Source: Pyrinomonadaceae bacterium
GTDB taxonomy: Bacteria > Acidobacteriota > Blastocatellia > Pyrinomonadales > Pyrinomonadaceae
Assembly: GCA_026129865.1 (NCBI GenBank)
Contig: JAHCHG010000003.1
Location: 310,001 to 374,000 of the forward strand
DNA: 64,000 bases
Reading direction: 5' to 3'
Below, piece by piece: positions 14,284-49,090 of this stretch; within the stretch, counting starts at the first letter, position 1, and each line of letters starts with the position of its first letter. Under the pieces are notes generated by a model. It saw only the letters and a program-made list of their open reading frames with translations. It ran no database searches and was not told the DNA's origin. The translations under genes were made by a program, and so were the position numbers.

Positions 14284-15087
14284 TTACCGCTTTCGACGTT
14301 TTCGTGCTTTGCGGCGAAATTGCGCAATATTTCGGTCGATCCAGTTATCGGCTTCCGAGTAATAAGCAAATTGCCGCTCATCGCGCTTAAATGCCGGCGT
14401 GTGAATTCGCCGCCGTCCGTTGACGCGTTCGACCGGGTGAAGAATATGAAGCATCTCGTGAAACACGACGTATTCGACAACAAATTCGGGCACTTCGGGC
14501 GAGTCGAGCGATTTGCTGACGATTATCGTTTCATGCTCCGCGTCGTGATGTCCCAAAATTCGAAATGTTCGATCGCGCGACCATGAAAGCGTCGGTTTTT
14601 TCAGTTTGTTGCCAAAATAGAGCAGATTCAGACGTTCAAAAATGGTTTCGAGATCGAAGAATTCGCCGTAAGGAGACGAGATCACTTTTTTACCGCGCGC
14701 CTTCTTATTCTTAAGAGCCTGTTCGCGAAGTTCGGATAATTTTGAATAGTCGCGGTATATAGCGGAAACTGCGGGAGAGATTCGCGTCCGCAAGAGTTTT
14801 CCAACCAGAATAAAAGCGAGCGATTCCTGAACATCCAGCGGCGCGTCGCGGCAGATCTCGCCGATCCGAACATAGACCTTTCCATCGCGAACCCGAATCG
14901 TGTGATTGATGCCGAGATACGGATAAAACCTGACATTTATCTCCGGCAGCGGATTTCGCGGTTTAATTTCCAAAAAAGCGCGTTCGTAGAAGCTTTTAAT
15001 TTGTGAGAGTTTTTCGTCCATCAAACCACCGATTATTCCAGTTTGACCGGATACTTTCAATTGCAGATGAGGGAGTTCCGCGGACAT
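14284..15087 (-). CDS. SprT-like zinc metallopeptidase-fold protein
   Basis: 267 residues. The C-terminal half contains HEMLHILHP (zinc-binding HExxH at residues 210-214), followed by RRRIHTPAFKRDE, which supplies a likely third ligand. FERLNLLYFGNKLKKPTLSWS and ILGHHDAEHETIIVS are typical of SprT-like domains in environmental bacteria. The N-terminal 100 residues are a separate alpha/beta region of unknown role. Known SprT-like proteins act on DNA-protein crosslinks or are uncharacterised; no DNA-binding segment is obvious here, so the substrate is open. No signal peptide. Confidence 0.82.
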   Translation of the reverse strand: MSAELPHLQLKVSGQTGIIGGLMDEKLSQIKSFYERAFLEIKPRNPLPEINVRFYPYLGINHTIRVRDGKVYVRIGEICRDAPLDVQESLAFILVGKLLRTRISPAVSAIYRDYSKLSELREQALKNKKARGKKVISSPYGEFFDLETIFERLNLLYFGNKLKKPTLSWSRDRTFRILGHHDAEHETIIVSKSLDSPEVPEFVVEYVVFHEMLHILHPVERVNGRRRIHTPAFKRDERQFAYYSEADNWIDRNIAQFRRKARKRRKR

Positions 15088-31952: not shown

Positions 31953-32825
31953 ATGAATTTACAGACTGATCACTTCCAGGAAAACGCCGCTCCGCCGGCT
32001 GTTCACATTGATGTGGAAGCGCTCGTCAGGACTAAACTTCCGCCTTTGCCCGGAAGTGTGGTCCGAATTTTACAGCTTTTGCAGGATTCGAATGTAACAA
32101 CCCGCGCTCTTGCAGACGCGGTGAGTTTCGATCCGCTGCTTACGACCAGAATTCTCAGGCTCGCAAACTCGCCGATCTACTCGCTTCAGCGGCGGGTGAT
32201 GTCGATCGCAACCGCGATCGATGTCATCGGAATGCGTTCGCTTTACGATATTTTGATGCTCAGCGCAGCGGCTGAATCTTTTTCTGCAGAAATTCGAACG
32301 TCTGTCATAGGCAGATTGATCTGGGAACATTCTCTGACGACCGCGCTTTATGCGCGCGAGCTCAGCCGTGAACTGGGGTTACGCGGAACTGAAGAGGTTT
32401 TCCTGTGCGGATTGCTGCACGACATCGGCAAAATTCTTTTGCTGCGTGCCGATCCCCAAGAATATGCGGACGCGCTCGAAAAACGCGGAGAAAAAGAAAT
32501 GCTGGTTTGGGAACAAGAGACCTTTGGAATCGATCATTCTTCGATCGGTGAATTAGTTGCAAAAAGCTGGAAACTTCCTGAAGCAGTTGGCTTTACGATA
32601 GCAAATCATCACCGCACCGGAGAAATCGAGAATATCGTACCGCATTTAATAAGTGTCAGTGATACGGTCGCTAACATCAACGGTTTTGGCGTCCGATTCG
32701 AAGAAATCGAGTCGCTGACGAATTCGGAATCCGTTCAGTTACTTCAGCTAAAAGGCGAGGTTCTGGAATCGGTCTGGGAAAGGATCGAACCCGGACTTCA
32801 GGAAGTGATGGACAGCTTCGGATAA
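31953..32825 (+). CDS. HDOD domain signalling protein, copy 1
   Basis: Single HDOD domain, 290 residues, with the conserved opening LPPLPGSVVRILQLL and ADAVSFDPLLTTRILRLANS. HDOD proteins are HD-superfamily regulators found in chemotaxis, motility and c-di-GMP networks. The potential metal ligands of the HD fold are kept: WEHS, LLHDIGK, IDHSSIGE and NHH. There is no visible ribosome site before the ATG, and an intrinsic terminator ends 16 bases upstream. First of three tandem copies; a fourth is at 41147. Whether it hydrolyses anything is unknown. Confidence 0.9.
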   Translation: MNLQTDHFQENAAPPAVHIDVEALVRTKLPPLPGSVVRILQLLQDSNVTTRALADAVSFDPLLTTRILRLANSPIYSLQRRVMSIATAIDVIGMRSLYDILMLSAAAESFSAEIRTSVIGRLIWEHSLTTALYARELSRELGLRGTEEVFLCGLLHDIGKILLLRADPQEYADALEKRGEKEMLVWEQETFGIDHSSIGELVAKSWKLPEAVGFTIANHHRTGEIENIVPHLISVSDTVANINGFGVRFEEIESLTNSESVQLLQLKGEVLESVWERIEPGLQEVMDSFG

Positions 32826-32929
32826 AAAATTGGACAAAACTTAAAAATCCGCTAAAGAATAAAAATCATCTGCCGAAAAGATGAAGGGCAGTTATTTCGC
32901 CGCTTCTATTCAAATCTATCCAGAAAAAT

Positions 32930-33844
32930 ATGCTAACCACTACGTCAACCGAATCTGCTGCCGTTCAGGGAATTCCGCAGCATGAAGAAAACCGGCTAGA
33001 AAAAGTTTTGAAAGAAAACCTGCCGCCGCTTCCGGGCAGCGTATTTCGGATTTTGGAGCTGATGCGCGATCCGAACACCTCGAGCGCTCAGCTCGGCGAA
33101 GCGGTCGGGCATGATCCGATGCTCGCGGCGCGAATGCTGAGGCTTGCCAATTCTTCCTACTATTCCCGGCAAAAAAATGTTACGTCGCTTTCGAAAGCGA
33201 TCGATACGATCGGGATGAAAGCGCTTTACGACGCATTAATGCTCGGGGTCGCCGCGAATGCGTTTTCGAAAGAGATCGGGACCGGAATCGGTGCGGCTAT
33301 TTGGCGGCATTCCCTTGCAGTCGCGTTAGTTGCGCGCGAGGTTTCACAGCAGGCGGACATGCGCGGCGGCGAAAATGCCTTTATTTGCGGATTACTGCAC
33401 GACATCGGCAAATTTGTCTTTCTCAAAGCAGATCCGAAAGGGTTTAAGGCAATTTCCGAACGCGCATCGGAATCGGAATTTTCTGAACTGGAAGCCCGGC
33501 ATTTCGGAGTCGATCATTCGGAGATCGGCGCTCTGCTCGTGCGCCGCTGGAACCTGCCGGAGGCGATTTCGTCGGTGATCTTGCATCATCATCATCCGGA
33601 AAATTCGCCAATGGCGCTATACGTATCGCACGTCGTAAACGCGGCTAACGATATCGCAAATATGAACGGATTCGATGTTTTACCATCAAAAAAAGAAGAA
33701 CTTTTCCCGGAGATAGAAAATCCTTTTGTTCCGACAAGATCGATGATTGCCCTGCATCTTTCGAGAGAACAGATCAGGGTCATATGGGAAAAGGTCGAAC
33801 CGCATCTTCACGAAGTGTTAAACGCGTTTTCGAAAAGCAAGTAA
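32930..33844 (+). CDS. HDOD domain signalling protein, copy 2
   Basis: 304 residues, same architecture as copy 1: LPPLPGSVFRILELM, AEAVGHDP-like GEAVGHDPMLAARMLRLANS, then WRHSLAVALVAREV, CGLLHDIGKF, VDHSEIGALLVRRWNLPEAI and LHHHHPEN. The His and Asp positions of the HD fold are kept. A variable N-terminal 30 residues differs from its sisters and may set partner choice. It follows copy 1 by 104 bp and precedes copy 3 by 53 bp; no Shine-Dalgarno is evident. Confidence 0.9.
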   Translation: MLTTTSTESAAVQGIPQHEENRLEKVLKENLPPLPGSVFRILELMRDPNTSSAQLGEAVGHDPMLAARMLRLANSSYYSRQKNVTSLSKAIDTIGMKALYDALMLGVAANAFSKEIGTGIGAAIWRHSLAVALVAREVSQQADMRGGENAFICGLLHDIGKFVFLKADPKGFKAISERASESEFSELEARHFGVDHSEIGALLVRRWNLPEAISSVILHHHHPENSPMALYVSHVVNAANDIANMNGFDVLPSKKEELFPEIENPFVPTRSMIALHLSREQIRVIWEKVEPHLHEVLNAFSKSK

Positions 33845-33897
33845 TTTAAAGACCGATTATTACGAAAATCCAAACCCGCTCCGTCCTAACAAAATAT

Positions 33898-34776
33898 ATG
33901 CAAACCAATCTAAATCAATACGATGTTCAACCTCCGATACCAAAAGCTAAGGTCGACATTGAAACTCTTTTGATCACAAAACTGCCGCCGTCGCCCGGAA
34001 CAATGATGCGGATCACTACACTTTTGCGCGATTTTAATGCCTCAATGCGCGAAGTGACTCAGGCGATAAGCTATGAACCAGTGCTGGTCGTGCGAATTCT
34101 TCGCCTGGCAAATTCACCGGTTTACGCGCTTGAAAGAAACGTTACCTCTATCCAATCGGCGATAGCCGCCGTCGGGGCAAAAGCGGTTCATGACATCGTT
34201 ATGATCGGACTGGCATCGACGACCTTTGCCAAAGAGATCAAAAATTCGCCAATCGCGAAAAAGATCTGGGAACATTCTCTGGCGGTTGCAATGACCGCGC
34301 GCGAACTCAGCAAATTGCTTGGAATGCGCGGCACGGAAGAAGCGTTCACGTGCGGGCTGCTGCATGACATAGGAAAGCTCATTTTGCTTTCGAACGATGT
34401 TGCGGGTTATTCGAGCCTCCTCGATCTGACCGAGGAAAGCCTTATGCTTCAGGGCGAAACCGAATTGTTTGGATACAACCATGCCGAGGTTGGATCGTTG
34501 ATCGCAAAACGCTGGAATCTGCCGGAAGAGGTCTATTTTTCTATACTTCATCACCATAATCCGTCGCAGTCGGAAAAGGTAAATCTGGTAGCACACATTG
34601 TAGATATTGCCGACATGATGACGAATTCGCGCGGCTACGGACTCCGTCCTCAGGACCCTGCCCGGATCGAACATTCAGAATCCGTAATGAAACTGGGATT
34701 TACGCTCGAGCAGCTCGATAAAGCTTGGCAAAATGCAGAAAGCAATATAAATGAAGTCATAAAGACATTTTCGTAA
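33898..34776 (+). CDS. HDOD domain signalling protein, copy 3
   Basis: 292 residues with LPPSPGTMMRITTLL, ISYEPVLVVRILRLANSP, WEHSLAVAMTAREL, CGLLHDIGKL, YNHAEVGSLIAKRWNLPEEV and LHHHNPS. The putative metal ligands remain. It is closer to copy 4 (both have PGT, ESVMKLG and a C-terminal W..AE segment) than to copy 2. Likely co-transcribed with copies 1 and 2. A stem-loop-like ggctgttgcagaacggtcgggattttttt region after the stop may be a weak terminator. Confidence 0.9.
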   Translation: MQTNLNQYDVQPPIPKAKVDIETLLITKLPPSPGTMMRITTLLRDFNASMREVTQAISYEPVLVVRILRLANSPVYALERNVTSIQSAIAAVGAKAVHDIVMIGLASTTFAKEIKNSPIAKKIWEHSLAVAMTARELSKLLGMRGTEEAFTCGLLHDIGKLILLSNDVAGYSSLLDLTEESLMLQGETELFGYNHAEVGSLIAKRWNLPEEVYFSILHHHNPSQSEKVNLVAHIVDIADMMTNSRGYGLRPQDPARIEHSESVMKLGFTLEQLDKAWQNAESNINEVIKTFS

Positions 34777-35777: not shown

Positions 35778-37730
35778 ATGTTCAGCGACAATTTCAGGCG
35801 CGGCGAAGGAACCGGAAACAGGAAAACCGGTTCAAAGATAGCATCAAAACTGGCGGACGCCGGATGGAAGGCGTTTCAGGCGGTGAATAAATCTTTGCCA
35901 GAAGGGAAATCCATTCAGCCGCAATGGGCGGCGGAACCGCTTTTGAAAAGCTATGAGCGAACCGCGCCGCCGTTAGGGTTTCCGCGCGAAACGGATTCTT
36001 TGTGTCCGAAATGCGTCAAGCAAGTTCGCAACGGCGTAATTAATAAAGATATTCCGCTTGAGATTTTGATGAATTCGCATCCGGGCGAGATCAAGGCGCA
36101 GATTTTGGAAGAGAACGGGCAAGTGATTATGCGAAAAACCTGCCCGACGCACGGCGAATTTGTTGACGTGATGGCGACCGATCCGGCGTTTTTAGAGCGC
36201 ATCGAATCACTTTTTTACGGGCGCGATTTCCGCTCCGCAGAAGACGAACACATACACAAACACGGAACATCCGACATTAAATACGGACGCGGCGCGGTTT
36301 TGACGGTCGATCTGACGAACCGCTGCAATATGATGTGCAATCCGTGTTTTATGGATGCGAATCAAGTCGGCTACGTTCACGAACCGACGTTTGAAGACAC
36401 GAAAGCGATTCTTGACCGCGCGATTTCATTCAAACCGAAACGGCAAATTATCATTCTGTTTTCCGGCGGCGAACCGACGATTGCGCCGCACTTTTTGGAA
36501 TCGGTCGCGTATGCGAAAAAGATCGGTTTTTACCGAATTTTAGCCGCGACGAACGGCATTCGCTACGCGGAAGACATCGAATTTTGCAAAGCGGCGAAAG
36601 CGGCGGGACAGCACGGCGTTTATCTGCAGTTTGACGGCGTTTCGGAAGAGAAAAACAAACATCGCGGAGTCGGGAATTTATTCGACGTAAAACTTCGCGC
36701 AATTGAAAATCTCGCGTCGGTCGGCATCAAAGTTACGCTCGTAACGACGATCGTCAATACGATAAATAACGACGGCATCGGCGACATCGTAAAGTTTGCG
36801 GCGGAAAATATCGATAAAGTTCAAACCATCGCGTTCCAGCCGGTTTCGTTTACGGGACGCGATGAAGATGTTTCCGACAAAGACCGAATTGAGCAGCGTT
36901 ACACACTCGCTGGAATGGCGCAGGATTTGGACACGCAGATGGACGGAACGCTCAAACCTTTGCGCGATTGGTTTCCGTTAAGTTCTTATTCTGCCTTTAC
37001 TTCCGTGATGGATATGCTGCAAGGCGCGGATGCGCCTTGGGGCTGGTCTTCGTGCAATTGTCATCCGAATTGCGGGATTTTTACGTTGATGATCGTCAAC
37101 AAAAAATCCGGCGAAATTCGTTCGCTTTTTGAATTTTTCAACTACGAACAATTTATGAAGGACGTGGCGACGATCACCGACACGGCTCGCGGCAAAAAGT
37201 TGACGATGGCGCAACTCGGAATGGCGATTATGCGAAATTATAACGCCGCGAACGCGCCGGAAGGTTTTCCCGTTTCGCAAATTCTAAATTTATTCAAACC
37301 GTCGTCCGCCGATTCAAATTCGGATCGAAACGACCGTATGAAGCAGGAAAAATCAGGAGAAGATGTTTGGCGCGTGCTTTGTGTCGAAGGAATGTGGTTT
37401 CAGGATTTGTTCAACTACGATTTCCGCCGCACCGAAATGTGCGTCATTCCTTACGGCACGCAGGAAGGCGAAATTTCGTTTTGCGCTTACAATACGGGTG
37501 TCGGCTGGCGGCAGATTATCGAAGAAATGCACAAAACCGCATCTTTGGGCGAATGGTATCAGGAACACGGTCGCCATGCCGTTTATGCGAAAGGCAAAGA
37601 GGTTCCCGGAATCAAAAAATCGCGCTCGATCTCGCTTCCCGTTATTGCCAATATCGTCGCTGAAGACAACGATGCGCCGAGCGTTACGCCGTATTTGGTT
37701 GAAGAAGAGTCCGAAACTGTTGGTGTTTAA
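35778..37730 (+). CDS. Tes/MJ0619-like radical SAM protein, candidate membrane-spanning lipid synthase
   Basis: 650 residues. N-terminal zinc-ribbon-like region: C76-x2-C79 and C122-x2-H125. The radical SAM cluster motif is CNMMCNPC (C183, C187, C190), then LFSGGEPTIAPHF (SAM-binding GGEP) and LQFDGV. A second Cys cluster, CNCHPNC (C426, C428, C432), and a Cys-bearing C-terminal block (MCVIPYG, ISFCAYNTGVGW) suggest auxiliary iron-sulphur sites. CNMMCNPCFMDANQVGYVHEP matches the archaeal tetraether synthase family in separate blocks. That family joins lipid tails carbon to carbon; bacterial relatives are linked to membrane-spanning diacids in Acidobacteriota. The role here is inferred. Confidence 0.8.
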   Translation: MFSDNFRRGEGTGNRKTGSKIASKLADAGWKAFQAVNKSLPEGKSIQPQWAAEPLLKSYERTAPPLGFPRETDSLCPKCVKQVRNGVINKDIPLEILMNSHPGEIKAQILEENGQVIMRKTCPTHGEFVDVMATDPAFLERIESLFYGRDFRSAEDEHIHKHGTSDIKYGRGAVLTVDLTNRCNMMCNPCFMDANQVGYVHEPTFEDTKAILDRAISFKPKRQIIILFSGGEPTIAPHFLESVAYAKKIGFYRILAATNGIRYAEDIEFCKAAKAAGQHGVYLQFDGVSEEKNKHRGVGNLFDVKLRAIENLASVGIKVTLVTTIVNTINNDGIGDIVKFAAENIDKVQTIAFQPVSFTGRDEDVSDKDRIEQRYTLAGMAQDLDTQMDGTLKPLRDWFPLSSYSAFTSVMDMLQGADAPWGWSSCNCHPNCGIFTLMIVNKKSGEIRSLFEFFNYEQFMKDVATITDTARGKKLTMAQLGMAIMRNYNAANAPEGFPVSQILNLFKPSSADSNSDRNDRMKQEKSGEDVWRVLCVEGMWFQDLFNYDFRRTEMCVIPYGTQEGEISFCAYNTGVGWRQIIEEMHKTASLGEWYQEHGRHAVYAKGKEVPGIKKSRSISLPVIANIVAEDNDAPSVTPYLVEEESETVGV

Positions 37731-38207: not shown

Positions 38208-41036
38208 TTGATGAAGAGATTTTATTCGGCAATTATTTTATCGGGCATTTTATGCGTTTCTTTTTTTGCTTCTTCAGCAAAAGCTCAAAAACGCATCTAT
38301 ATCGCGCCTGACGACCACACTGATTATATGTGGTCGGCTGACGAGGCGACTTATCGATCCAGCTTGCTGGCAATGACCGATTACTATCTTAACCAGATGG
38401 ATGCGACTGCCGGAAATCCGTCAAATCAGCAAGCTCGCTGGAATGCAGACGGAAGCTTTTGGATGTGGCTCTACCAGCGAAACCGCACGCCCGCGCAATT
38501 TCAAAGATTAATTAACCGAATAAACGATGGACATTTCAGTGTTCCGCTGAACGCATTGGTACTGTCGAACGGCGGAACACCGGCGGAGGCGGTTTTGCGG
38601 GGAATGTATTATCCGGGTCTGATCCAGCGTCAATTCGGTGTTCAATTTCCGATCGCGATTTCCATGGAGAATCAGGTTTTACCGCTCGGACTGCCGTCTT
38701 TATGGGCGGGTTCAGGCGCGCGTTACAGCTGGAAAGGCGTTTGCAATTGCGCGTCGCACGTTACGCAGCTTAATAATCGCGACCGCGAAATTTATTACGC
38801 CGGCGGGCGTGACGGCAGCCGGATCTTGATGAAGTGGAATTCTCAGCTTCTAAATGACAGCGAATCGATCGGCGGATATGCCGAAGGTCGCGTCGTGGGA
38901 ACGGCGATCAATTTTGTCGATAATAATGTATTGTTCACGTCCCGGTATCCGTATAACGTGATCGGGATATTCGGTCTCGGGCATGATGATCTGCAGACCA
39001 TGACAACGGGTTTTGTTGAAGCCGCCCAGCAGCATTCGCTGCCCGGCAGGCAGGTGATCGTTTCGAATCAAACCGACTTTTTTCAGGATTTTGAATCAAA
39101 TTTCGGGAGCGGAATTGAAACGTATTCTGCCAGTTTCGGGAACGAATGGGAGCTTTACGTCGCCTCGTTGGCGGAAGTTTCGGCGCGCGTAAAGCGTGCA
39201 AATGAAAAACTTAGAAACGCGGAAGCACTCGCAACTTTGGTTTCACTTCGCGACCCGTCGTTCATGAACAGCCGAATCGCCGCGCGCGACAAAGCGATGC
39301 TTAATTTCGGGCTATATTACGAACATAACTGGACCGCCGACGGCGCGGTGTCGCGAACCGACCGTGCAAATTGGCAGCGCCGCATCGAGTCTGAGATCAC
39401 TAATTACGTCGATCAGCTGCATGAAGATGCGCGGAGTTCGCTCGGTACATATATCTCCAGAAGCGGTTCTAATACAAGGTTTTATGTATTTAATGGATTA
39501 AGCTGGGCGCGAACCGATTTTGCAGATTTTCCGGTAACCGATACAAATCCGGTAAATGTTATCGACGTTTCAAGCGGCTTGCAGGTTCCGTCTCAATACG
39601 TAAATCTCAATGGACAGACGTTCCTTCGCGTTTTGGCGAGCGATGTCCCTTCCGTCGGGTACAAGGTTTTCGAAATTCGCAGCGGTACGGGAACGACTTT
39701 TTCCGATGCGGCGACCATTAACGGCGGAGTAATTGAAAACGAAATCTACAAAGTCACCGTGTCGCCGACCGGAGCGATCACCAGTTTGATCGATAAAACA
39801 CAGGGTAATAGGGAATTTGTCCGGACCGTAAATGGTAGAACGGTCAACGACCTCGGCGGCAGCGGCGGCAGTTTGGCTGTAGAAAATGTCGGTCCGGTCA
39901 GCGTCACGCTTCGCGCGACTTCTTCAAGTCCGCTGTCGCATGTTTCGAGAATAACCTTTATCCGCGGAACCAACCGCATAGAGATTCGAAACGAGATCAC
40001 ACAGAACTTCGGCAATTCGCCGACCTGGGGCTATTCGTTCGAGATCAATTCGCCGGATGTATGGCACGAAGAGGTCGGTGCCGTTATCCGTGCCAAATTG
40101 TTAGGAAACGGCGGTCATTATTCTCCGCGAAATGCCCGGTACGATTGGTTGACAATGAATCATTTCGCCGATATCAGCGGCGGCGGAGTCGGCGTAACCA
40201 TCTCAAATGCCGATGCCTACTATATGAAATTAGGTTCAAGCGGATTTACAACGCTTGACACGAACACTCCGCAGATCAACATTTTGGCTGGAGGACAGAT
40301 CGACGGCAGCGGGCTCGGGATTCCGAATCAGGGCGGCGATTCGCAGTTTTTGCAGAGATTTGCATTAAAAACGCACTTCGGATTCGATCAAACCGCAGCG
40401 ATGAAATTTTCAAAAGAACATCAAAATCCGTTTGTGACCGGAACCGTAACAGGATCGAACGGCTATTACGATGAAAATTCATACTCGTTTTTAACCATTA
40501 GCGATCCTGATGTTCTTCTTTGGTCGCTGAAGCCCGCGGAAGACGGTATTGGTCAAGGAGTCATTACTCGTGTTTGGAACCAAGCAAATTCGGGCAGAAC
40601 TTATAGTTTATCTCTCGCTCCGGACTTAATTTCGGCAAAACACGTAACGCATATCGAGACTTTTCTGTCTGATGCTTCTGTTGTAAATGGAAATCTTTCC
40701 GCTTTTGCCGCAGCCAATCAGATCCAGACACACCGGCTCACGCTTTCGGAAACGACACATAGTGCAGCGCCGGTTTCAGGACGAATTCTCTTTCATGGAC
40801 GGGCAGCGTTTGGAAAAGTAACGGTAAAATTAGTCGATTCGACCGCCGGAGTAACTTATACAACCAAAACGAACGCCGAAGGTTATTTCGTTTTCCAGTC
40901 AATTCCGATCGGGAATGAAATTTCGGTTACGCCGGTACGTCCCGGTTATTCTTTTATGCCGCAGACGCGCTTTTACACCCATCAGGGAACGCTGATAAAT
41001 GTAGATTACTCAGGAAATTACCGCGGATTAAACTGA
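38208..41036 (+). CDS. Secreted GH38-like glycoside hydrolase with C-terminal regulatory-like domain
   Basis: 942 residues. Signal peptide to about residue 26 (SSAKAQ). The mature start IYIAPDDHTDYMWSADEATY carries the HTD pattern of family 38 alpha-mannosidases, where the Asp and His bind zinc. A helical region (about 360-430), the C-terminal beta-sandwich of GH38 enzymes (about 480-850) and a carboxypeptidase-regulatory-like domain (SGRILFHGRAAFGKVTVKL to the end) follow. It may cleave mannose-type glycans outside the cell; catalytic residues beyond the zinc motif were not confirmed. A related uncharacterised hydrolase family is the alternative. Confidence 0.75.
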   Translation: MMKRFYSAIILSGILCVSFFASSAKAQKRIYIAPDDHTDYMWSADEATYRSSLLAMTDYYLNQMDATAGNPSNQQARWNADGSFWMWLYQRNRTPAQFQRLINRINDGHFSVPLNALVLSNGGTPAEAVLRGMYYPGLIQRQFGVQFPIAISMENQVLPLGLPSLWAGSGARYSWKGVCNCASHVTQLNNRDREIYYAGGRDGSRILMKWNSQLLNDSESIGGYAEGRVVGTAINFVDNNVLFTSRYPYNVIGIFGLGHDDLQTMTTGFVEAAQQHSLPGRQVIVSNQTDFFQDFESNFGSGIETYSASFGNEWELYVASLAEVSARVKRANEKLRNAEALATLVSLRDPSFMNSRIAARDKAMLNFGLYYEHNWTADGAVSRTDRANWQRRIESEITNYVDQLHEDARSSLGTYISRSGSNTRFYVFNGLSWARTDFADFPVTDTNPVNVIDVSSGLQVPSQYVNLNGQTFLRVLASDVPSVGYKVFEIRSGTGTTFSDAATINGGVIENEIYKVTVSPTGAITSLIDKTQGNREFVRTVNGRTVNDLGGSGGSLAVENVGPVSVTLRATSSSPLSHVSRITFIRGTNRIEIRNEITQNFGNSPTWGYSFEINSPDVWHEEVGAVIRAKLLGNGGHYSPRNARYDWLTMNHFADISGGGVGVTISNADAYYMKLGSSGFTTLDTNTPQINILAGGQIDGSGLGIPNQGGDSQFLQRFALKTHFGFDQTAAMKFSKEHQNPFVTGTVTGSNGYYDENSYSFLTISDPDVLLWSLKPAEDGIGQGVITRVWNQANSGRTYSLSLAPDLISAKHVTHIETFLSDASVVNGNLSAFAAANQIQTHRLTLSETTHSAAPVSGRILFHGRAAFGKVTVKLVDSTAGVTYTTKTNAEGYFVFQSIPIGNEISVTPVRPGYSFMPQTRFYTHQGTLINVDYSGNYRGLN

Positions 41037-41146: not shown

Positions 41147-42025
41147 ATGATCACTCAAATTTTACCAGGTGACGAGTTCGCTCCGGTTGCGCTTCGCGAG
41201 AAGCTGGATATCGAAACACTCGTCGAATCCAAACTGCCACCTGCGCCGGGAACTCTTTTGCGCCTGGTGAGACTGCTTGCAGATTATTCTACTCCCAGAT
41301 CAAAACTGATCAGCGAAATAAACGGCGATCCGATTCTCGCAGCCAGGATACTGCGGCTCGCGAATTCACCTATCTACGCCTTCGAACGCGAGATCATGCT
41401 GGTTGATATGGCACTTACTGCCGTCGGCAGCCAGACGATTTATGACATCGTAGTTCTCGAACTTGCATCGCGTTCGATCGATAATTCGCTCAGCCGTACT
41501 GCTGCGTTCCGAAAGCTCTGGAACCATTCGATAGCGGTTGCGGTTCTTACCAAGACAATAAGCGAAACGATGGAGATGCGCGGTTTAGAAGAATCTTTCA
41601 TTTGCGGGCTTTTGCACGATTTTGGAAAGTTTTTGCTGCTTAATCATGATCTGGAAAATTACCAGAAACTGTTCGACATAGAAGACGAATTTGAAATGCT
41701 CGCCGCCGAAGATGCAGCGTACGGATTTACTCACGCGGAAGTCGGTTCGTTGGTTGCCCGCCGCTGGAATCTGCCGGACGAAATATGCTACGCGATCTTG
41801 AATCATCACAGCGCGTCGCATTCGGAACAGCCGCGATTTGTCGATCATATTATTGAGATCGCCGACCTGTTAGCAATTACTAAGGGATTTGGAACCCGGA
41901 GCGTCGGCAAAGCATCGCTGGAGTTTTCCGAATCGGTAATGAAACTCGGGATGTCGCTAAAACATCTGGAAACGATCTGGAGTACCGCCGAACCGAAGAT
42001 CAAAGAAATGATAAGCTACTTTTAA
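41147..42025 (+). CDS. HDOD domain signalling protein, copy 4
   Basis: 292 residues, with LPPAPGTLLRLVRLLADYS, GDPILAARILRLANSP, WNHSIAVAVLTKT, CGLLHDFGKF, FTHAEVGSLVARRWNLPDE and LNHHSAS. The HD-fold His and Asp residues are retained; Ile is Phe in the HD motif. Sequence is nearest copy 3. It lies 6.4 kb downstream of the tandem copies, beyond the radical SAM and GH38-like genes, and is convergent with pgi. Confidence 0.9.
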   Translation: MITQILPGDEFAPVALREKLDIETLVESKLPPAPGTLLRLVRLLADYSTPRSKLISEINGDPILAARILRLANSPIYAFEREIMLVDMALTAVGSQTIYDIVVLELASRSIDNSLSRTAAFRKLWNHSIAVAVLTKTISETMEMRGLEESFICGLLHDFGKFLLLNHDLENYQKLFDIEDEFEMLAAEDAAYGFTHAEVGSLVARRWNLPDEICYAILNHHSASHSEQPRFVDHIIEIADLLAITKGFGTRSVGKASLEFSESVMKLGMSLKHLETIWSTAEPKIKEMISYF

Positions 42026-42028
42026 TGA

Positions 42029-43720
42029 TCAATCGACGAGCGCTGGCAGTTCACGAAGTTCTTTTGCAGCATCGCCGTCAAAATGCATTCTCAATGCCCG
42101 GCGTTTCCGGTCGAGCAAAACCTGAAAATCACCGCGTGCCTGAGCCGATTTGACGACACCGAACGTATAATCCTGTCCGGGAACCTCTAAATCCTGTGCG
42201 TCGTCCGATGTTATCTGCAGAAAAACGCCGTTGTTCGCGCCCCCTTTATATGCCTGTCCGGTCGAATGCAGGAATCTCGGACCAAAACCTAGAGCGGTCG
42301 CAGCAAGCTTTTTATTGAACACTTTCTCGCGGAATTCCTGCAGCAGTCCGATGTTCTCTTCGTTTCGTTCAACATAAGCCAAAAGCGCGAAGTAATCGTT
42401 TTCCTGAATATGCGCAAGATGCGCCTCAAGAAACTTGTCGACAGTCCTATCGCCTTCAATATATTTCTCCAAAGATTTCGCGTAATCGCTGCTTGAAAAC
42501 AGCTTGATTCCGCCCGCTTCGAAAAATGGTTCCTCTTTCGGCAATTCGCCTGTTTTTTCGTATTCTTCGGTGAGCTTTTTTGCTTCGATCTTCGCCGATT
42601 CCACGTCCGGCTGATCGAACGGATTTATTTTCATGATCGCGCCGGCGACCGCGGTCGCAAATTCCCAGCGGAAAAACTCCTGTCCAAGGTTCATTTTATC
42701 GTCCAAAACTATTTTGACCACAGGAAATCCGGAGTCGCCGAGCAAGGCGATCTTCTCATCTAAACTGTCATCGCGAGTATTTCTCAACTTTAGGTAAGCA
42801 AAAATGCGGTCGTCCGAATAGCTGTCCGGCTTTTCGATCGGTTCGAGATCGATTGGAATGATCGATCTGTTTTGTTTTCCCGTGCTTTCGGCGATCAATT
42901 GTTCAAGCCACGCACCGACATCGTAGATCTCAGGCGAAGTAAATATGGTCAGTTTATCGCGACCTTGCCTGTTGCAATTGCCTAAAATGATCCCGAGCAT
43001 AGCGCCCGGATTTTCCATCGCGTCCGAAGTTTTGCATGAGTCGACCATTTCCTGCGCGTTCGCCAAAAATTGCTCAACATCCAATCCCATCGCCGCACCG
43101 GCTGCCATTCCGAAGGGCGAAAGCGCGGAAAATCTGCCGCCGATCGTCGGATCTCCGTAAAAAATCTTGCGAAAGTTGTTTTCTTTTGCGATCTTTTCAA
43201 GCTTGGAACCGGGATCTGTGATCGCCGCGAAGTTATTTCCGGCATTTTCAACACCTACCGTTCCCTTTACCCGTTGGTGAAAATACTGATAGAAAGTGTT
43301 CGGCTCAAGGGTTGAACCGCTTTTGCTTGCAACAATAAAAAGCGTCCCGGCAATATCGAGTTTACCTTCTAAGGTCATGATCTGTGCCGGAACCGTCGAA
43401 TCCAGAATATGAAAGTTTTCTTTGCCGAATGTTTCCGCGAGAACTTCGGGACATAGAGACGAACCGCCCATTCCCAGAAGTACGATTGACTGAAAACTTT
43501 CTGCTTCTTTCGCAAAAGCTTTATATTCACTCACTTTTCCGAGCTCCGCCGCGACGGAATCGAGCCATCCGAGCCATTTTGCTTCGTCCTCGCCGGTCCA
43601 AACGGACGCATCTTTCTTCCAGATCCGTTCGACTCCGGAATCGCTGTTCCAGGTTGAAACGGTTTTCAAAACAGCGGATTCAATTTCCGCAGGCAGCTTA
43701 AAACTTATTTGATCGAGCAT
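42029..43720 (-). CDS. pgi: Glucose-6-phosphate isomerase
   Basis: Interconverts glucose 6-phosphate and fructose 6-phosphate. 563 residues from MLDQISFKLP; the open frame upstream would add an unconserved hydrophobic leader and overlap ada. LLGMGGSSLCPEVL, VASKSGSTLEPN and IGGRFSALSPFGM are PGI motifs. The sequence is closest to the PGI part of the transaldolase-PGI type, with FLHSTGQAYKGG near the end. Convergent with HDOD copy 4, divergent from ada. Confidence 0.92.
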   Translation of the reverse strand: MLDQISFKLPAEIESAVLKTVSTWNSDSGVERIWKKDASVWTGEDEAKWLGWLDSVAAELGKVSEYKAFAKEAESFQSIVLLGMGGSSLCPEVLAETFGKENFHILDSTVPAQIMTLEGKLDIAGTLFIVASKSGSTLEPNTFYQYFHQRVKGTVGVENAGNNFAAITDPGSKLEKIAKENNFRKIFYGDPTIGGRFSALSPFGMAAGAAMGLDVEQFLANAQEMVDSCKTSDAMENPGAMLGIILGNCNRQGRDKLTIFTSPEIYDVGAWLEQLIAESTGKQNRSIIPIDLEPIEKPDSYSDDRIFAYLKLRNTRDDSLDEKIALLGDSGFPVVKIVLDDKMNLGQEFFRWEFATAVAGAIMKINPFDQPDVESAKIEAKKLTEEYEKTGELPKEEPFFEAGGIKLFSSSDYAKSLEKYIEGDRTVDKFLEAHLAHIQENDYFALLAYVERNEENIGLLQEFREKVFNKKLAATALGFGPRFLHSTGQAYKGGANNGVFLQITSDDAQDLEVPGQDYTFGVVKSAQARGDFQVLLDRKRRALRMHFDGDAAKELRELPALVD

Positions 43721-43814
43721 AAAACTAATGTAACAAACGATTTCCCAAAAAGGAAAAAATTGCATGACAATAAACGGATAGATTCGGTTTACGATTTTTA
43801 ATAATATCTTCGAC

Positions 43815-44861
43815 ATGGAAAAAGAACTCTTTTGGAACGCGGTGATTTCGAACGACAAAAGATTTGACGGCGCGTTCGTTTACGCTGTCGGCACGACCAA
43901 GATCTACTGCAAACCGTCCTGCAAATCTAAGCCTCCGAAGCGCGAGAACGTAGCATTCTTTCGTTCGCCGGAACTTGCGGAAAAAGAAGGTTTTAGAGCC
44001 TGCTTACGATGTCTTCCAAGATCGGAAAAGACAGACCGTCAGACAGATCTGGTTATACGTACGTGCGAATTGATCGAAACGGATATTGAAAACACGCTCG
44101 AATCGCTCGCAGAACGGTTGAACGTTAGTACCGGACATTTGCAGCGGACATTTACGCGAATCGTCGGCGTTTCGCCGCAAAAATACAAAGAAAATCGAAG
44201 ACTGGCGAAATTCAAAAACGAACTGAAACAAGGCGGGGAAATTGTCGATGCGATCTATGAATCGGGTTTCGGTTCAAGTTCCAGACTTTACGAAAATGCT
44301 TCGCGAAAGCTCGGAATGACACCATCGAAATATAAAAAGGGCGGAAAAAATATGGAGATCGACTTCGCGATCACAACTACAAAGATCGGGAAAATGATTG
44401 TTGCTGCAACTGGGAAAGGGATCTGTTCGGTTTCGCTCGCCGATTCGGCTGAGGATCTTCTTTCGGCTTTGAAAGAAGAATTTCCGAATGCAATTATTCG
44501 GGAATCGGACGAACTGTTAAAAGAATTTATTAATGAGATAGTAGAAAATATTGAAGGCGATAATCGAGCGATCGAGCTGCCGCTGGACGTTCGCGCGACG
44601 GCGTTTCAAATGCGGGTCTGGGAAGAGCTTCGGAAAATTCCGTACGGCAAAACAGCCACGTATCAGGAAATTGCGGCAAAGATCGGTAATAAAAACGCTG
44701 TTCGTGCGGTCGCGCGGGCATGCGCCTCGAATCAGGTCGCTCTGGTTATCCCATGTCATCGAGTCATTCGCAGCGACGGCAGTTTGAGCGGCTATCGTTG
44801 GGGCGTAGAGCGCAAACGGTCTCTTTTGGAGCATGAAAGATCAAGATCGGTAGAAACATAA
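43815..44861 (+). CDS. ada: Ada: methylation-responsive regulator and O6-methylguanine methyltransferase
   Basis: Repairs alkylated DNA and activates the adaptive response. 348 residues. The N-terminal zinc site has four Cys (IYCKPSCKSK, ACLRCLP); one accepts methyl from phosphotriesters. The AraC-type HTH pair covers about residues 85-175 (LAERLNVSTGHLQRTF). The C-terminal methyltransferase has the PCHRV active-site Cys. All three parts are intact, so both repair activities and gene activation are likely. Divergent from pgi. Confidence 0.95.
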   Translation: MEKELFWNAVISNDKRFDGAFVYAVGTTKIYCKPSCKSKPPKRENVAFFRSPELAEKEGFRACLRCLPRSEKTDRQTDLVIRTCELIETDIENTLESLAERLNVSTGHLQRTFTRIVGVSPQKYKENRRLAKFKNELKQGGEIVDAIYESGFGSSSRLYENASRKLGMTPSKYKKGGKNMEIDFAITTTKIGKMIVAATGKGICSVSLADSAEDLLSALKEEFPNAIIRESDELLKEFINEIVENIEGDNRAIELPLDVRATAFQMRVWEELRKIPYGKTATYQEIAAKIGNKNAVRAVARACASNQVALVIPCHRVIRSDGSLSGYRWGVERKRSLLEHERSRSVET

Positions 44862-44953
44862 ACCGCGTATTGAAAAGATCTAAAGCGATTAAATTTATTA
44901 AAAAACAACGAAATTTAGCGCTTTCATTCGGTCGTGAAAACTGCTCTCTTTAA

Positions 44954-45121
44954 CGCTTTTTTGCAATTCGTGTCCGCTTGCTTATCGACAGCGCGAAGGC
45001 GATCGCTGCTGTGATCAGCGATAATTCCAGAAAGATCTACGAATCCTGGCTTGCGAGGGCAAAAGCCGCAGTTTCAGCAAGAAACGATTGGCGAGATCGA
45101 CAAATTGACTCGGAACTTTAG
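44954..45121 (+). pseudogene. Possible short gene relic with RsbRD-like sequence
   Basis: A 56-codon stretch between stops, without a start codon, reads SAKAIAAVISDNSRKIYESW followed by LARAKAAVSARND. This resembles the helical N-terminal RsbRD domain of some sensor proteins (an xxWLARxR motif). It could be a decayed gene end; chance is also possible. The enclosing spacer, 44862-45255 (394 bp), otherwise shows nothing. Confidence 0.25.
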
Positions 45122-45255
45122 TTCCTTAGCGGTAAAAACGAGTTCGATAGGACTATCGACATTAATCTGAAATATTAACCCCCGAAGTTTTCCGCTGCCG
45201 GAAGAGTACACTCAAACCAAAGCGAAATAGTTAACGAGAAGTTAAATTTTAAAAA

Positions 45256-46434
45256 CTACGCGTTCAACCATTTCAAAAAATGTTTGTTTTGAATGTGAAA
45301 CGCATGTTCCGGGGATTCGTATTTCGTCATCGGCAGTTTAAAGAACACCGATAGCTGCTCTTGAATGCCTGAATCGCCGCGTTGTTTTGCAAGGTCAAGG
45401 CATCTTGCGATCTCAATTGCCAGCGGGGCTGCAAGGATCGAATCTTTGCAGAGAAAATTCACTTTTATCTGCATTTTCTGCCCCAAAAAGCCCGTGATGT
45501 CGATATTGTCCCAGGCTTCTTTGTCATCGCCGCGCGGTCGATAATAGCGTATATCGACGATATGGTCTTCGACTTCGTAACCCAAAATATTCCGCAACAC
45601 CGACGCTTTCGTTTTGATCTTTGAACGCAGACTGTCTTCGTTTGAAAGTGCGAGCCCGTCGCGATTTCCCAAAAGATTTGTCGAATACCAGCCCTCGATC
45701 TTCAATTCCCGGGCTTTCAGGGCAGGGGCAAGCACGGTCTTAATAAAGGTCTGCCCGGTTTTGCCGTCCTTTCCAGCGATCGGCACGTTTTGCATTTCGG
45801 CAAATTCGATCAACGCTGGAATATCCGCAGCAACAGAGGGCGTAAAATTGCCATACGGAATTTCTGTAGAGATTGCCGCGTAAGCGTAAAGCATTGCCGG
45901 CGAAATGTTTTCCGAGCCCGCATCCAAAGCGTTTTCAAATGCTGCGAGCGAAGAATATTCTTCCGACGATTCATCCACCAGCTTTTCCGTCGATGCAAGA
46001 TTGATCACGACCACCTGATCACAGATTTCCTGAAATTTTTTCAGATCATTGACGATATTTTTGATCACTTCACGGTGATCTTTTGACGGTAAAAAATTTC
46101 CGCCCTCGATATTCGAAAGAAATCGTTCATCAACCGCGGCTTTCCAGGGATAAATCTTGGAAAGCGAATTTTCAACCGCGACGAATTGTTTATGATTCAA
46201 CACTTCGTGTTCCTCGGCGGCTGCGGCAAGATTTTCGGCATTCAGATCCCATCCCCCGAAAACGATCCGTTCGTATGCGGCAAGGTCTTTGGCTGAATTC
46301 TGATCAAGTTCGGAAAGCGGCAGCCCGGTTTTATCGACCTTTCCCAATTTTAAAAGTTCGATTCCGGCAACCATCGTGGTGCCGACCGCGCCGCCTAAAC
46401 CGATCACTGCAATTCCAAGAGTTCGTTCGCTCAT
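45256..46434 (-). CDS. ino1: Myo-inositol-1-phosphate synthase
   Basis: Converts glucose 6-phosphate to inositol 1-phosphate with NAD+. 392 residues, starting with the nucleotide motif AVIGLGGAVGTTM. IAGKDGKTGQTFIKTVL, the catalytic Lys region and GWYSTNLLGNRDGLAL are hallmarks. C-terminal KSILAAPL-like SILAAPLAIEIARC completes it. It may supply inositol for phospholipids, or a compatible solute. The nearby pgi acts on the same substrate but is in a different orientation. Confidence 0.92.
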   Translation of the reverse strand: MSERTLGIAVIGLGGAVGTTMVAGIELLKLGKVDKTGLPLSELDQNSAKDLAAYERIVFGGWDLNAENLAAAAEEHEVLNHKQFVAVENSLSKIYPWKAAVDERFLSNIEGGNFLPSKDHREVIKNIVNDLKKFQEICDQVVVINLASTEKLVDESSEEYSSLAAFENALDAGSENISPAMLYAYAAISTEIPYGNFTPSVAADIPALIEFAEMQNVPIAGKDGKTGQTFIKTVLAPALKARELKIEGWYSTNLLGNRDGLALSNEDSLRSKIKTKASVLRNILGYEVEDHIVDIRYYRPRGDDKEAWDNIDITGFLGQKMQIKVNFLCKDSILAAPLAIEIARCLDLAKQRGDSGIQEQLSVFFKLPMTKYESPEHAFHIQNKHFLKWLNA

Positions 46435-46808
46435 AAAAATCTAGATTTTATAACTTACATCGAGATTTCGCCATATCGCTTTAATAAATGCGTTTGATGA
46501 GATTGAATCAGCGGTAAAATCTGACAATGTTCAGATTATAACGGTCGGGATTGAAATGAGACAATTGCGCGAAGGCACGATGAAATAACGGGATTTATTG
46601 AACGGAAGGAAATGGAATGCTTTCAAAAGCAGCGGGATTCGGTCAAAGCGGGCTTGTGTTTTTTTCTAATTAAAGCAAAGAAACGAGGTTAACTTCTCAC
46701 AGTCCGAGCATTTTATGTCCGAATATAAAGAATAGGTGTGACGTAAGGCTCGCCCGCTCGCATCGGACGATGAGAGGTATTTAGTTATTCCATCTAATTT
46801 TTAACAAG
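46435..46808. other. Non-coding spacer
   Basis: 374 bp between ino1 and an exported-protein gene, both on the minus strand. No protein or hairpin of note was seen. Confidence 0.5.
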
Positions 46809-47318
46809 TTATTGTTTATAGATCAGATCGCGTTTTTTGTGTTTTTTCTTTGAAAAGAAACCGGCGATACCGCCGACGGCTGCGCCGCCAAGTGCGCCAA
46901 GTAAAAATCCTGCACCAGCCAATCCATTATCGACCTGATCATCGCCCTTGCCGGCGGCGACCGCCGGTACTCCAAGCGCCAGCGCGCCGACACCCGCTCC
47001 GATTGCTGCGCCTTTTCCAGTGTTTCGATCATTTACAAATAGCAGTGCGCGCCATACTTTCTTAACCTCAGCACGGTTGATCGTTGTCTCCGTTTGCGTC
47101 AAACTTTTTGCTCCAGCAACCTGAATAACAAAACTATCTGGTGTTACGGAACGCATAATGCCGTATTTCATAGTTCCGCCTGACAATTTAACGGCTACTT
47201 CCTGACCGACCAGCGATTCCACCGATGACCAGTCCGTCTGGCTCCCAGCCAATGCCAAACTGCTGGAAACAGCCATTATTGAGCAGATCAATAGAGATGA
47301 CATTAGTTTTCTGACCAT
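46809..47318 (-). CDS. Exported Sm-like-domain protein with glycine-zipper tail
   Basis: 169 residues. Signal peptide MVRKLMSSLLICSIMAVSSSLALA. The next 70 residues, QEVAVKLSGGTMKYGIMRSV and onwards, look like a small Sm/LSM barrel. The C-terminus is a Gly/Ala-rich segment (GAAIGAGVGALALGVPAVAA, GAGFLLGALGGAAVGGIAGF) of the glycine-zipper kind found in membrane-associated proteins, then a Lys-rich tail. Probably periplasmic or membrane-bound. Function unknown. Confidence 0.75.
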   Translation of the reverse strand: MVRKLMSSLLICSIMAVSSSLALAGSQTDWSSVESLVGQEVAVKLSGGTMKYGIMRSVTPDSFVIQVAGAKSLTQTETTINRAEVKKVWRALLFVNDRNTGKGAAIGAGVGALALGVPAVAAGKGDDQVDNGLAGAGFLLGALGGAAVGGIAGFFSKKKHKKRDLIYKQ

Positions 47319-47451
47319 AGTTCGATCCTCCAGAGAAAATGTTTTGTAAGCAGCTTTAGATTATCCGAACTATTCAAAGAACGGATTTGAGCTGTGATAG
47401 TTTGCCGGATTGCAACAGTTCGCAGCGCGAGAATTTCTCACAAAGCAATAC

Positions 47452-48531
47452 TCAAATCTTGCCGCGTTCAATGGAGTTCGACGCGATCTTACCTAGCGCG
47501 CTGACGAACAGGTGGAAATTTGCGAACCGCTTATCTTTTGTGAAGCCTTTTACGAAGCGAAAATAGATCTGCTGGGCGATGACGGCGATCTTAAATGTGC
47601 CGAAAACGTAATAATACAAAATGTTTGAAAGATCAGCGCCCGACTCCGCTGCATAGATCTCTGCCAATTCGCGGCGCGATACATTTTCCATCAACGACCG
47701 CGGATTAAACGGCATTGAAAGAAGCGCTTCACCGGCGTTTCTCGACATCCAATAACCGAGAGTCGTGCCCAGATCCATCAACGGTTCACCGATCGTGGTC
47801 ATTTCCCAATCGAGGACGGCAACGATCTTTGTCAGGTCGGAAGGGTCGAGCATTAAATTGTCGAATTTGTAATCGTTATGGATCAACGAAGCGCCGTCGG
47901 AGTCCGGAATATGCGAGTTTAACCATTTGATCGCCTCTTCTAGTTCCGCGTGATCTTCAGTCTTTGCGTTGAAATACCGCTCGGTCCATCCATAAACTTG
48001 CCGCTGAACATATCCCTCGGGCTTTCCAAGGTCAGCGAGTCCGATCTCTCTAAAATCTATCGAATGAAGTTTTACCAGATTTTGAATGAACGATTCGACG
48101 ATCTTCAGCCGCGATTCTTGAGATCCGTTCAGCATCGCGCGCTGTTCGGGAGCAGCATCGCCGGCGAGCGAGCCGCGAATTATCAAGCCGCGGCGGCGCT
48201 CCATTATGTAAAACTCCGAACCGATAACGGACTCGTCGCCGCAATAAAGCAGCGGCTTCGGCGCCAATTCGTAACCGGTGCTCAGTTTCGCCAATACGTT
48301 AAACTCGCGCGACATATCATGTGCCGATTTGACGGGATTTCCTACGGGCGGACGCCGCAGGATAAACTCTTCGTTCTCGATCTTCACGCCGTATGTCAAG
48401 TTTGAACTTCCTCCGGTCAACCGGTGTATTTTCAGATCGGAATTTGCGTCAAAACCCTCCGATCTAAGAAATTCACGCAGCCGCTTTGGGTCAATTTCTT
48501 CGGTGTTTTTGGCGATACTCTGTTCTTTCAT
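47452..48531 (-). CDS. APH-family phosphotransferase (ACAD10/11 or LvaA-like)
   Basis: 359 residues from the Met at MKEQSIAKNTEEIDP; earlier in-frame Met codons are less likely. Kinase-like fold: LTGGSSNLTYGV and FILRRPP contain the nucleotide-binding region, LIHNDYKFDNLMLDP is the catalytic loop (HxDxxxxN), and LDWEMTTIGEPLMDLG carries the metal-binding Asp. This fits the ACAD10/11 N-terminal kinase and LvaA, which phosphorylate 4-hydroxyacyl-CoA, not aminoglycosides. The acyl-CoA dehydrogenase at 52888 could be its partner, 4 kb away. Confidence 0.85.
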   Translation of the reverse strand: MKEQSIAKNTEEIDPKRLREFLRSEGFDANSDLKIHRLTGGSSNLTYGVKIENEEFILRRPPVGNPVKSAHDMSREFNVLAKLSTGYELAPKPLLYCGDESVIGSEFYIMERRRGLIIRGSLAGDAAPEQRAMLNGSQESRLKIVESFIQNLVKLHSIDFREIGLADLGKPEGYVQRQVYGWTERYFNAKTEDHAELEEAIKWLNSHIPDSDGASLIHNDYKFDNLMLDPSDLTKIVAVLDWEMTTIGEPLMDLGTTLGYWMSRNAGEALLSMPFNPRSLMENVSRRELAEIYAAESGADLSNILYYYVFGTFKIAVIAQQIYFRFVKGFTKDKRFANFHLFVSALGKIASNSIERGKI

Positions 48532-49090
48532 AACCAATCGACTCGCTTTACGACGCGACATTTTTCGATTCCGAACCAAATTATTTTCATCTTCAGAAAA
48601 AAAAGGATCTGCTTTGTTCGTTATAAGCGAAAACATCTAAGTTTATCGTTTCGAACCAGATAACGGAAACACCTTATTGCCGGTACGATCCTTTAATTCT
48701 TGCAAAGCATTAAATGTTGCAACAATGTTAAACATTTTTGCTTGACAGCGCCATTTTTCGGGTGCTATACCAGAGTTGGTACTAAAACCGTTACTCATAA
48801 AACCGAATGATAAGTCCTCCCGACGGTGAGTAACGATCGATCGTGGGATTGAAACTGCAGCTCTGCCGCGCAATAAGATTCCGGTTTTTGATGGATCTTT
48901 TGATCGCGTGAATCTTCGCAGACCTGCAAAACCAAACAACTAACATTTCTATTGGAAATCGATCGCGCTCTATTTGACGCGATCCCAAAATTTTAATATG
49001 TTCAACGGTTTTTGCACGAGCTTTTTCGGAACAAAGCAAGATTTCGTACGAACTCGTCAACGAAAACCAGATTTAGAGAGGATTTTATAA
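48532..49090. other. Spacer and long leader upstream of the SBBP/VCBS gene
   Basis: About 560 bp. It contains a promoter near 48742, and a transcript from it would have a leader of about 310 bases. A hairpin with arms GATCGCG (48961-48967) and CGCGATC (48978-48984) is present. The rest shows nothing I recognise. Confidence 0.5.
48713..48771 (+). promoter_or_regulatory. Promoter with upstream AATGTT/AACATT element
   Basis: TTGACA (48742-48747), 18-bp spacer, TATACC (48766-48771). AATGTT at 48713 and again at 48724, then AACATT at 48731-48736, five bases before the -35. The element resembles the one upstream of hrcA. Confidence 0.6.

Follow-up and report, generated by a model that had tools for sequence, protein, structure and literature searches.

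A Tes-like radical SAM protein of Pyrinomonadaceae belongs to an accessory, lpxD-linked clade that may join lipid tails

The 64,000-nucleotide stretch of a Pyrinomonadaceae bacterium genome analysed here (the window; contig JAHCHG010000003.1, positions 310,001–374,000) encodes a radical SAM protein that, by sequence comparison, is a member of clade A, an accessory paralogue of the Pyrinomonadaceae and related lineages. Judged by its sequence and structure model, the protein is probably (roughly 60%) a cytoplasmic, membrane-associated enzyme built like Tes that couples lipid tails at their methyl ends, with lipid A or an outer-membrane lipid as the leading candidate pool.

The initial annotation placed a 650-residue radical SAM protein at positions 35778–37730 of the forward strand, and an open reading frame of that length, which starts with ATG just downstream of an AGGA sequence, was found there (Table 1). 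The protein matches Radical_SAM (E = 1.4e-21) and, at its N-terminus, Zn_ribbon_HMPTM (PF23545; E = 9e-15) in Pfam. Its top curated family is the tetraether lipid synthase Tes (NF045702; 320.7 bits, E = 1.5e-95), but the score lies below the 450-bit cut-off of this NCBIfam equivalog. A phmmer search against solved structures identified 7tol (MJ0619/GDGT-MAS; E = 1.9e-68) as the sole close solved relative. The AF2 model of the protein (pLDDT 87.6, pTM 0.89) adopts the whole-protein fold of Tes/GDGT-MAS, including the helical cap, and aligns with 7tol over 476 residues at 2.3 Å (Z = 42.1; Foldseek E = 5e-40, TM 0.88 by target). The next-best fold is that of MoaA, which matches in the core only (Z = 21). 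The Tes/MJ0619-like membership that had been claimed for the protein is thus borne out by sequence, fold and catalytic ligands. No relative was found in viral contigs. The N-terminal helix, which precedes the part shared with MJ0619, is moderately amphipathic (hydrophobic moment rank 14 of 632 18-mers).

Table 1. Features of the radical SAM gene and its HDOD neighbours in the window
Feature	Position	Strand	Evidence
Upstream array of three HDOD genes in tandem; orthologues do not keep this context	31953..34776	+	ORF list, neighbourhood comparison, PF08668 scan
Tes-like radical SAM protein of clade A (650 residues)	35778..37730	+	Pfam, NCBIfam, phmmer, alignment, tree, fold comparison
N-terminal helix, residues 15–37, not in MJ0619; candidate in-plane membrane anchor	35820..35888	+	AF2 model, hydrophobic moment
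Rubredoxin-like ribbon C76-x2-C79-x42-C122-x2-H125, residues 76–125	36003..36152	+	Alignment, Pfam PF23545
Site of the archaeal N-terminal auxiliary cluster (MJ0619 C73/C77/C80), here H158, H160, H162 and S165, residues 158–165; ligands lost	36249..36272	+	Alignment
Radical SAM motif C183-x3-C187-x2-C190	36324..36347	+	Pfam, alignment
L227 and L255, Leu in clade A only and Gln in clades B and C and in MJ0619, on either side of the GGEPT SAM-binding strand	36456..36542	+	Alignment
C426-N-C428-H-P-N-C432; C432 corresponds to a Cys of MJ0619, whose sequence lacks C426 and C428	37053..37073	+	Alignment
Block of the C-terminal auxiliary cluster: M539 (in MJ0619, the labile Met439), C555, Y559 (Tyr459), C569	37392..37484	+	Alignment
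Fourth HDOD gene, downstream; context not kept in orthologues	41147..42025	+	PF08668 scan, neighbourhood comparison

The metal sites were compared with those of MJ0619 in an alignment that joined MJ0619 to 139 relatives, of which 49 belong to clade A, 68 to clade B and 22 to clade C. Lloyd et al. (PMC9433317) describe in MJ0619 a rubredoxin-type iron site (C9, C12, C33 and H36, arranged as C9-x2-C12-x20-C33-x2-H36), the RS cluster and two auxiliary [4Fe-4S] clusters: an N-terminal one, with C73, C77, C80 and a His as ligands, and a C-terminal one that bears the labile Met439. They also state that the substrate carbon becomes bound to cluster sulfur. In the window protein, the rubredoxin-like CX2C...CX2H site is present (C76/C79/C122/H125), and its longer central spacing makes the ribbon 22 residues longer than that of MJ0619, in agreement with the insertion noted earlier. 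The CX3CX2C cysteines of the RS cluster are invariant, as are M539, C432, C555 and C569 at the C-terminal site. The ligands of both clusters and the equivalents of Met439 and Tyr459 are kept in all three clades, except for two clade A sequences in which Asn replaces the Tyr, and this conservation suggests that C432, C555 and C569 are the ligands of the C-terminal cluster. The additional residues C426 and C428 are invariant in clades A and B. Because the residues of the ribbon, RS motif, CNCHPNC motif and C-terminal block are invariant or nearly so among relatives, these motifs do not reflect chance. The N-terminal auxiliary ligands of MJ0619 are replaced by H158, H162 and S165, and the cysteines are absent throughout clades A and B (His at position 162 and Ser or Ala at 165), whereas 22 of 22 clade C sequences retain them. 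The motif set expected of tetraether synthase relatives, which had been ascribed to the protein, therefore stands for the ribbon, CxxxCxxC, CNCHPNC and C-terminal block but not for the N-terminal auxiliary ligands.

Homologues are present in 58 of 60 relatives and in 168 of 297 genomes of the phylum. Clade A proteins are 62–89% identical to the window protein and are carried by its own family, by two other lineages (f33 and f47) and by a number of Acidobacteriota MAGs that have no family placement; the named carriers include Pyrinomonadaceae MAGs. The source genome contains a second homologue (C15:406632–408398), 55% identical over nearly the full length, which belongs to clade B. Clade B proteins (50–59% identity to the window protein) are spread across the phylum, as in Granulicella sp. 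S156, and are present without clade A in Acidobacteriaceae-like and Chloracidobacterium-like genomes. Several members of the window's family also keep clade B and lack clade A, and clade A is therefore accessory. Clade C proteins are approximately 35% identical to the window protein and score 487–583 bits with the Tes model, above its cut-off, whereas all clade A and B proteins tested score 297–328 bits. In a tree built by a quick method, with long branches, one archaeal sequence and the Mss proteins left out, clade A is monophyletic (SH-aLRT 99), clade B forms one clade (80), and the two form one group (support 100) that stands apart from clade C and MJ0619, with a branch length of 2.6 changes per site. 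The comparison with Tes that had been proposed thus stops short of Tes identity, in both model score and tree position.

Clade B also extends outside Acidobacteriota, to Minicystis rosea (complete genome), other Myxococcota, Gemmatimonadota, Latescibacterota and KSB1 (loci L109, 7308–9860, and L093, L095, L098, L102, L103, L108, L116, L124, L129, L137, L144 and L145); by sequence, these carriers are possible unrecognised makers of iso-diabolic acid. Clade B and clade C genes share a neighbourhood in three Acidobacteriaceae-like genomes of two genera (L181, 8821–13001; L179, 6256–13489; L180, 5991–15445), where they possibly form a joint pathway, and are directly adjacent in L181. The Chloracidobacterium-like genome G046 contains further Tes-model matches of 224–258 bits (C2:297532–298470 and C1:207651–208586) that belong to none of clades A, B and C and are possibly Mss-like.

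The gene neighbourhood separates clade A from clade B. An lpxD paralogue is located within 10 kb of the clade A gene in 26 of 44 genomes, compared with 0 of 70 for clade B (Fisher p = 3e-14); the linkage occurs in essentially two lineages, and the genomes are thus not independent. In lineage f33, lpxD lies 49–356 bp from the clade A gene on the same strand in 12 of 12 genomes. In the window's family, Pyrinomonadaceae, lpxD lies within 10 kb in 14 of 31, often with lpxB and at some loci with lpxA; hldE is also found near clade A genes at some loci. The linked LpxD copies examined all belong to one LpxD paralogue group (support 100/99). In profile scans of representatives, LpxD, LpxB, LpxA and the RfaE/HldE heptose kinase domain scored above their cut-offs; a relative of lipid A methyltransferases that resembles LmtA, also encoded near clade A loci, scored below its own. 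At the operon-like locus L186 (3813–13133), lpxB, a peptidase gene, an LmtA/ICMT-like methyltransferase gene, the clade A gene, lpxD, an SprT-like gene, a gene for an unassigned Cys-rich protein and an hldE-type kinase gene form a run. No lpx genes adjoin the clade A copy of the window: in the window's own subclade the gene has left this location, and the LpxD2 and LpxB orthologues of its genome reside on contig C12, away from that copy; the lipid A link thus rests on orthologues. The two LpxD paralogues of the source genome are encoded at C12:131260 and C12:429234, the second paired with LpxB, and two LpxD paralogues occur in most Acidobacteriota examined. A second LpxD as a peculiarity of clade A carriers was rejected, since most genomes with clade B only also have two. 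An ORF at 14284 was rejected as lpxA and is related to the SprT-like neighbour of other clade A loci.

The window protein is likely to work like Tes, as its sequence and modelled fold suggest. SAM would be cleaved at the C183/C187/C190 cluster, and the 5'-deoxyadenosyl radical would abstract a hydrogen from a tail end lying in the hydrophobic channel. The C-terminal [4Fe-4S] cluster (C432, C555, C569 and the labile M539) could then hold the carbon radical, in the manner shown for the substrate radical of MJ0619 (PMC9433317), and a second hydrogen abstraction, from the other tail, would lead to the C–C bond. The two tails, coupled at their methyl ends, would probably be iso-branched. Bulk iso-diabolic acid is probably the product of clade B, the core acidobacterial version, and the clade A enzymes probably act on another lipid pool. 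Gene context points to the acyl chains of lipid A, or of an outer-membrane lipid made with LpxD2–LpxB, as the leading clade A substrate. Within the tail-joining reading, such a lipid A or outer-membrane specialisation is tentative and has the odds against it. MJ0619 ignores head groups (PMC9433317), and gene context may therefore not mean substrate.

Membrane-spanning iso-diabolic acid, attributed to Acidobacteriota by the initial annotation, is abundant in the cultured Pyrinomonadaceae relative Pyrinomonas, where ether or membrane-spanning lipids exceed 40% (PMC4644332). Iso-diabolic acid composes 27–49% in Occallatibacter and Telmatobacter of the Terriglobales (PMC12935467). Groups that lack clade A and carry clade B appear to make iso-diabolic acid, as suggested by matching their families, through genome architecture, to Acidobacteriaceae and Chloracidobacterium. 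Chloracidobacterium makes iso-diabolic acid, and acidobacterial iso-diabolic acid is poorly released by Bligh–Dyer extraction. In a narrow literature search, none of the papers listed linked iso-diabolic acid to LPS. The suggestion that the window protein may be the synthase holds for its place in the Tes-like superfamily but not for an obvious iso-diabolic-acid synthase, because a phylum-wide clade B paralogue is encoded in the same genome; clade B is the better candidate for the main synthase, and clade A the less likely one. That acidobacterial Tes homologues make membrane-spanning lipids is already a published hypothesis (Zeng et al. 2022, PMC8941075); that study found 456 bacterial homologues, some of them from Acidobacteria, and suggested a role in brGDGTs. 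Solibacter homologues were invoked by Halamka et al. (PMC10087280). The function of bacterial Tes homologues was still unconfirmed as of 2025 (PMC11868695), and Mss and Ger were confirmed through expression in E. coli (PMC11604127, PMC13274423).

Clade A could instead be a second iso-diabolic-acid synthase that shares the bulk phospholipid substrates of clade B and differs in chain length, tail position or the conditions of expression, its lpx context being historical. This alternative is possible but doubtful. It would suit the identity of 55% and the shared catalytic ligands of the two clades, the iso chains of C15–C21 found with iso-diabolic acid in Pyrinomonas (PMC4644332) and the absence of lpx genes beside the window copy; however, the clade A gene stays linked to one and the same LpxD paralogue despite class-like divergence (clade A identity of 62–89%) and in two different gene orders, and two Gln-to-Leu changes are fixed in clade A only. 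It is unlikely that clade A is a dedicated synthase linking lipid A acyl tails, mutually or to phospholipid, into cross-linked or outer-membrane-spanning LPS.

Eleven alignment columns are at least 90% conserved within each of clades A and B but differ between them. The residues corresponding to Q141 and Q169 of MJ0619 are 99–100% Gln in clades B and C but Leu in clade A (L227, 100%; L255, 96%) and flank the GGEPT active-site strand region. These changes could alter or change the chemistry of clade A. Hydrogen abstraction from the tails of lipid A or another lipid might then be followed by desaturation, thiolation, methylation or ring formation, an improbable outcome that would be in keeping with the two Leu residues and with E537 beside the labile Met. 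The lost N-terminal cluster and the two extra cysteines near the C-terminal cluster would also fit, but they are common to clade B and thus do not distinguish clade A. Moreover, Met539, Tyr559 and the three C-terminal cluster cysteines are kept, and their counterparts hold the substrate radical in MJ0619 (PMC9433317).

Despite the top match to the curated Tes family, the protein was rejected as a true Tes, and a bacterially acquired archaeal-type Tes making tetraethers is very improbable given its 321 bits against the 450 required and the 487–583 reached by acidobacterial clade C, the absent N-terminal cluster ligands and the separate long-branch subfamily. The HDOD genes do flank the radical SAM gene, three upstream and one downstream (PF08668 confirmed by scan for 31953–32825 and 41147–42025), but of about 30 clade A loci, just 3 (the window itself, L051 and L069) have HDOD neighbours; the suggested control by adjacent HDOD genes is thus unsupported and was rejected as a family trait, and an enzyme controlled with, or acting in, HDOD signalling is highly implausible. 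The interval that separates the radical SAM gene from the fourth HDOD gene encodes a 942-residue secreted-looking protein (38208–41036), which has only a weak carboxypeptidase-regulatory-like match and, by eye, the appearance of a GH38-type glycoside hydrolase. Further downstream (42029–48636) are genes for a phosphoglucose isomerase-like protein, an inositol-1-phosphate synthase and an APH-type kinase, the first two of which are kept at several other loci of the window's subclade; phosphoglucose isomerase-like and inositol-phosphate synthase genes neighbour clade A at many loci of this subclade.

Several palaeoclimate proxies in wide use are built on membrane-spanning lipids of bacteria. Three homologue types, with clade C as true Tes, clade B as the core type and clade A as the accessory, lpx-linked type, replace one undifferentiated Tes homologue and provide distinct genes for tests. 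Tail-to-tail coupling would reach the outer membrane if lipid A were the substrate of clade A; the joining of lipid A tails would then amount to their modification by a radical SAM enzyme and could explain part of the bound iso-diabolic acid of these bacteria.

Among known systems, the TrsS radical SAM (seleno)protein (NF045646) has a related N-terminal ribbon and RS core, but the window protein scores 210 bits against a cut-off of 490 and matches in two separate stretches. Mss was reportedly described as a bacterial membrane-spanning lipid synthase by Sahonero-Canavesi in 2022, and Thermotoga maritima is the source of a tested mss. At E = 1e-40, the Tes model matches the window protein but nothing in T. 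maritima, and Mss and the window protein are thus at least not close. Mss resembles the window protein in the proposed reaction and shares the Tes catalytic architecture in published models (PMC13274423); the threshold for similarity to tested Mss proteins in that paper is >30% identity and E ≤ 1e-30. The one BcrAD_BadFG match in the source genome is a single 326-residue frame, unlike the large, tandem-domain Ger/PlsA of the literature, and no Ger was thus found in this genome. Tes/GDGT-MAS (MJ0619, PDB 7tol/7tom; NF045702) shares with the window protein the whole-protein fold, the rubredoxin-type ribbon and the RS cluster, as well as the conserved Tyr and the ligands of the C-terminal cluster, among them the labile Met. 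The window protein differs in being bacterial, approximately 30% identical and below the curated cut-off, in lacking the N-terminal auxiliary ligands, in having the 22-residue ribbon insert, C426/C428, an N-terminal helix and a C-terminal extension and, as a clade A protein, in the two Gln-to-Leu changes. Clade C, the bacterial Tes of Zeng et al. (2022), belongs to the same superfamily and phylum but contains all Tes ligands, passes the Tes cut-off and is approximately 35% identical to the window protein. The clade B paralogue, of the sister clade of A, has the same ligand set and has likewise lost the N-terminal cluster; at 55% identity, it differs in keeping both Gln residues, in lacking the lpx linkage and in its far wider distribution, including Myxococcota and other phyla.
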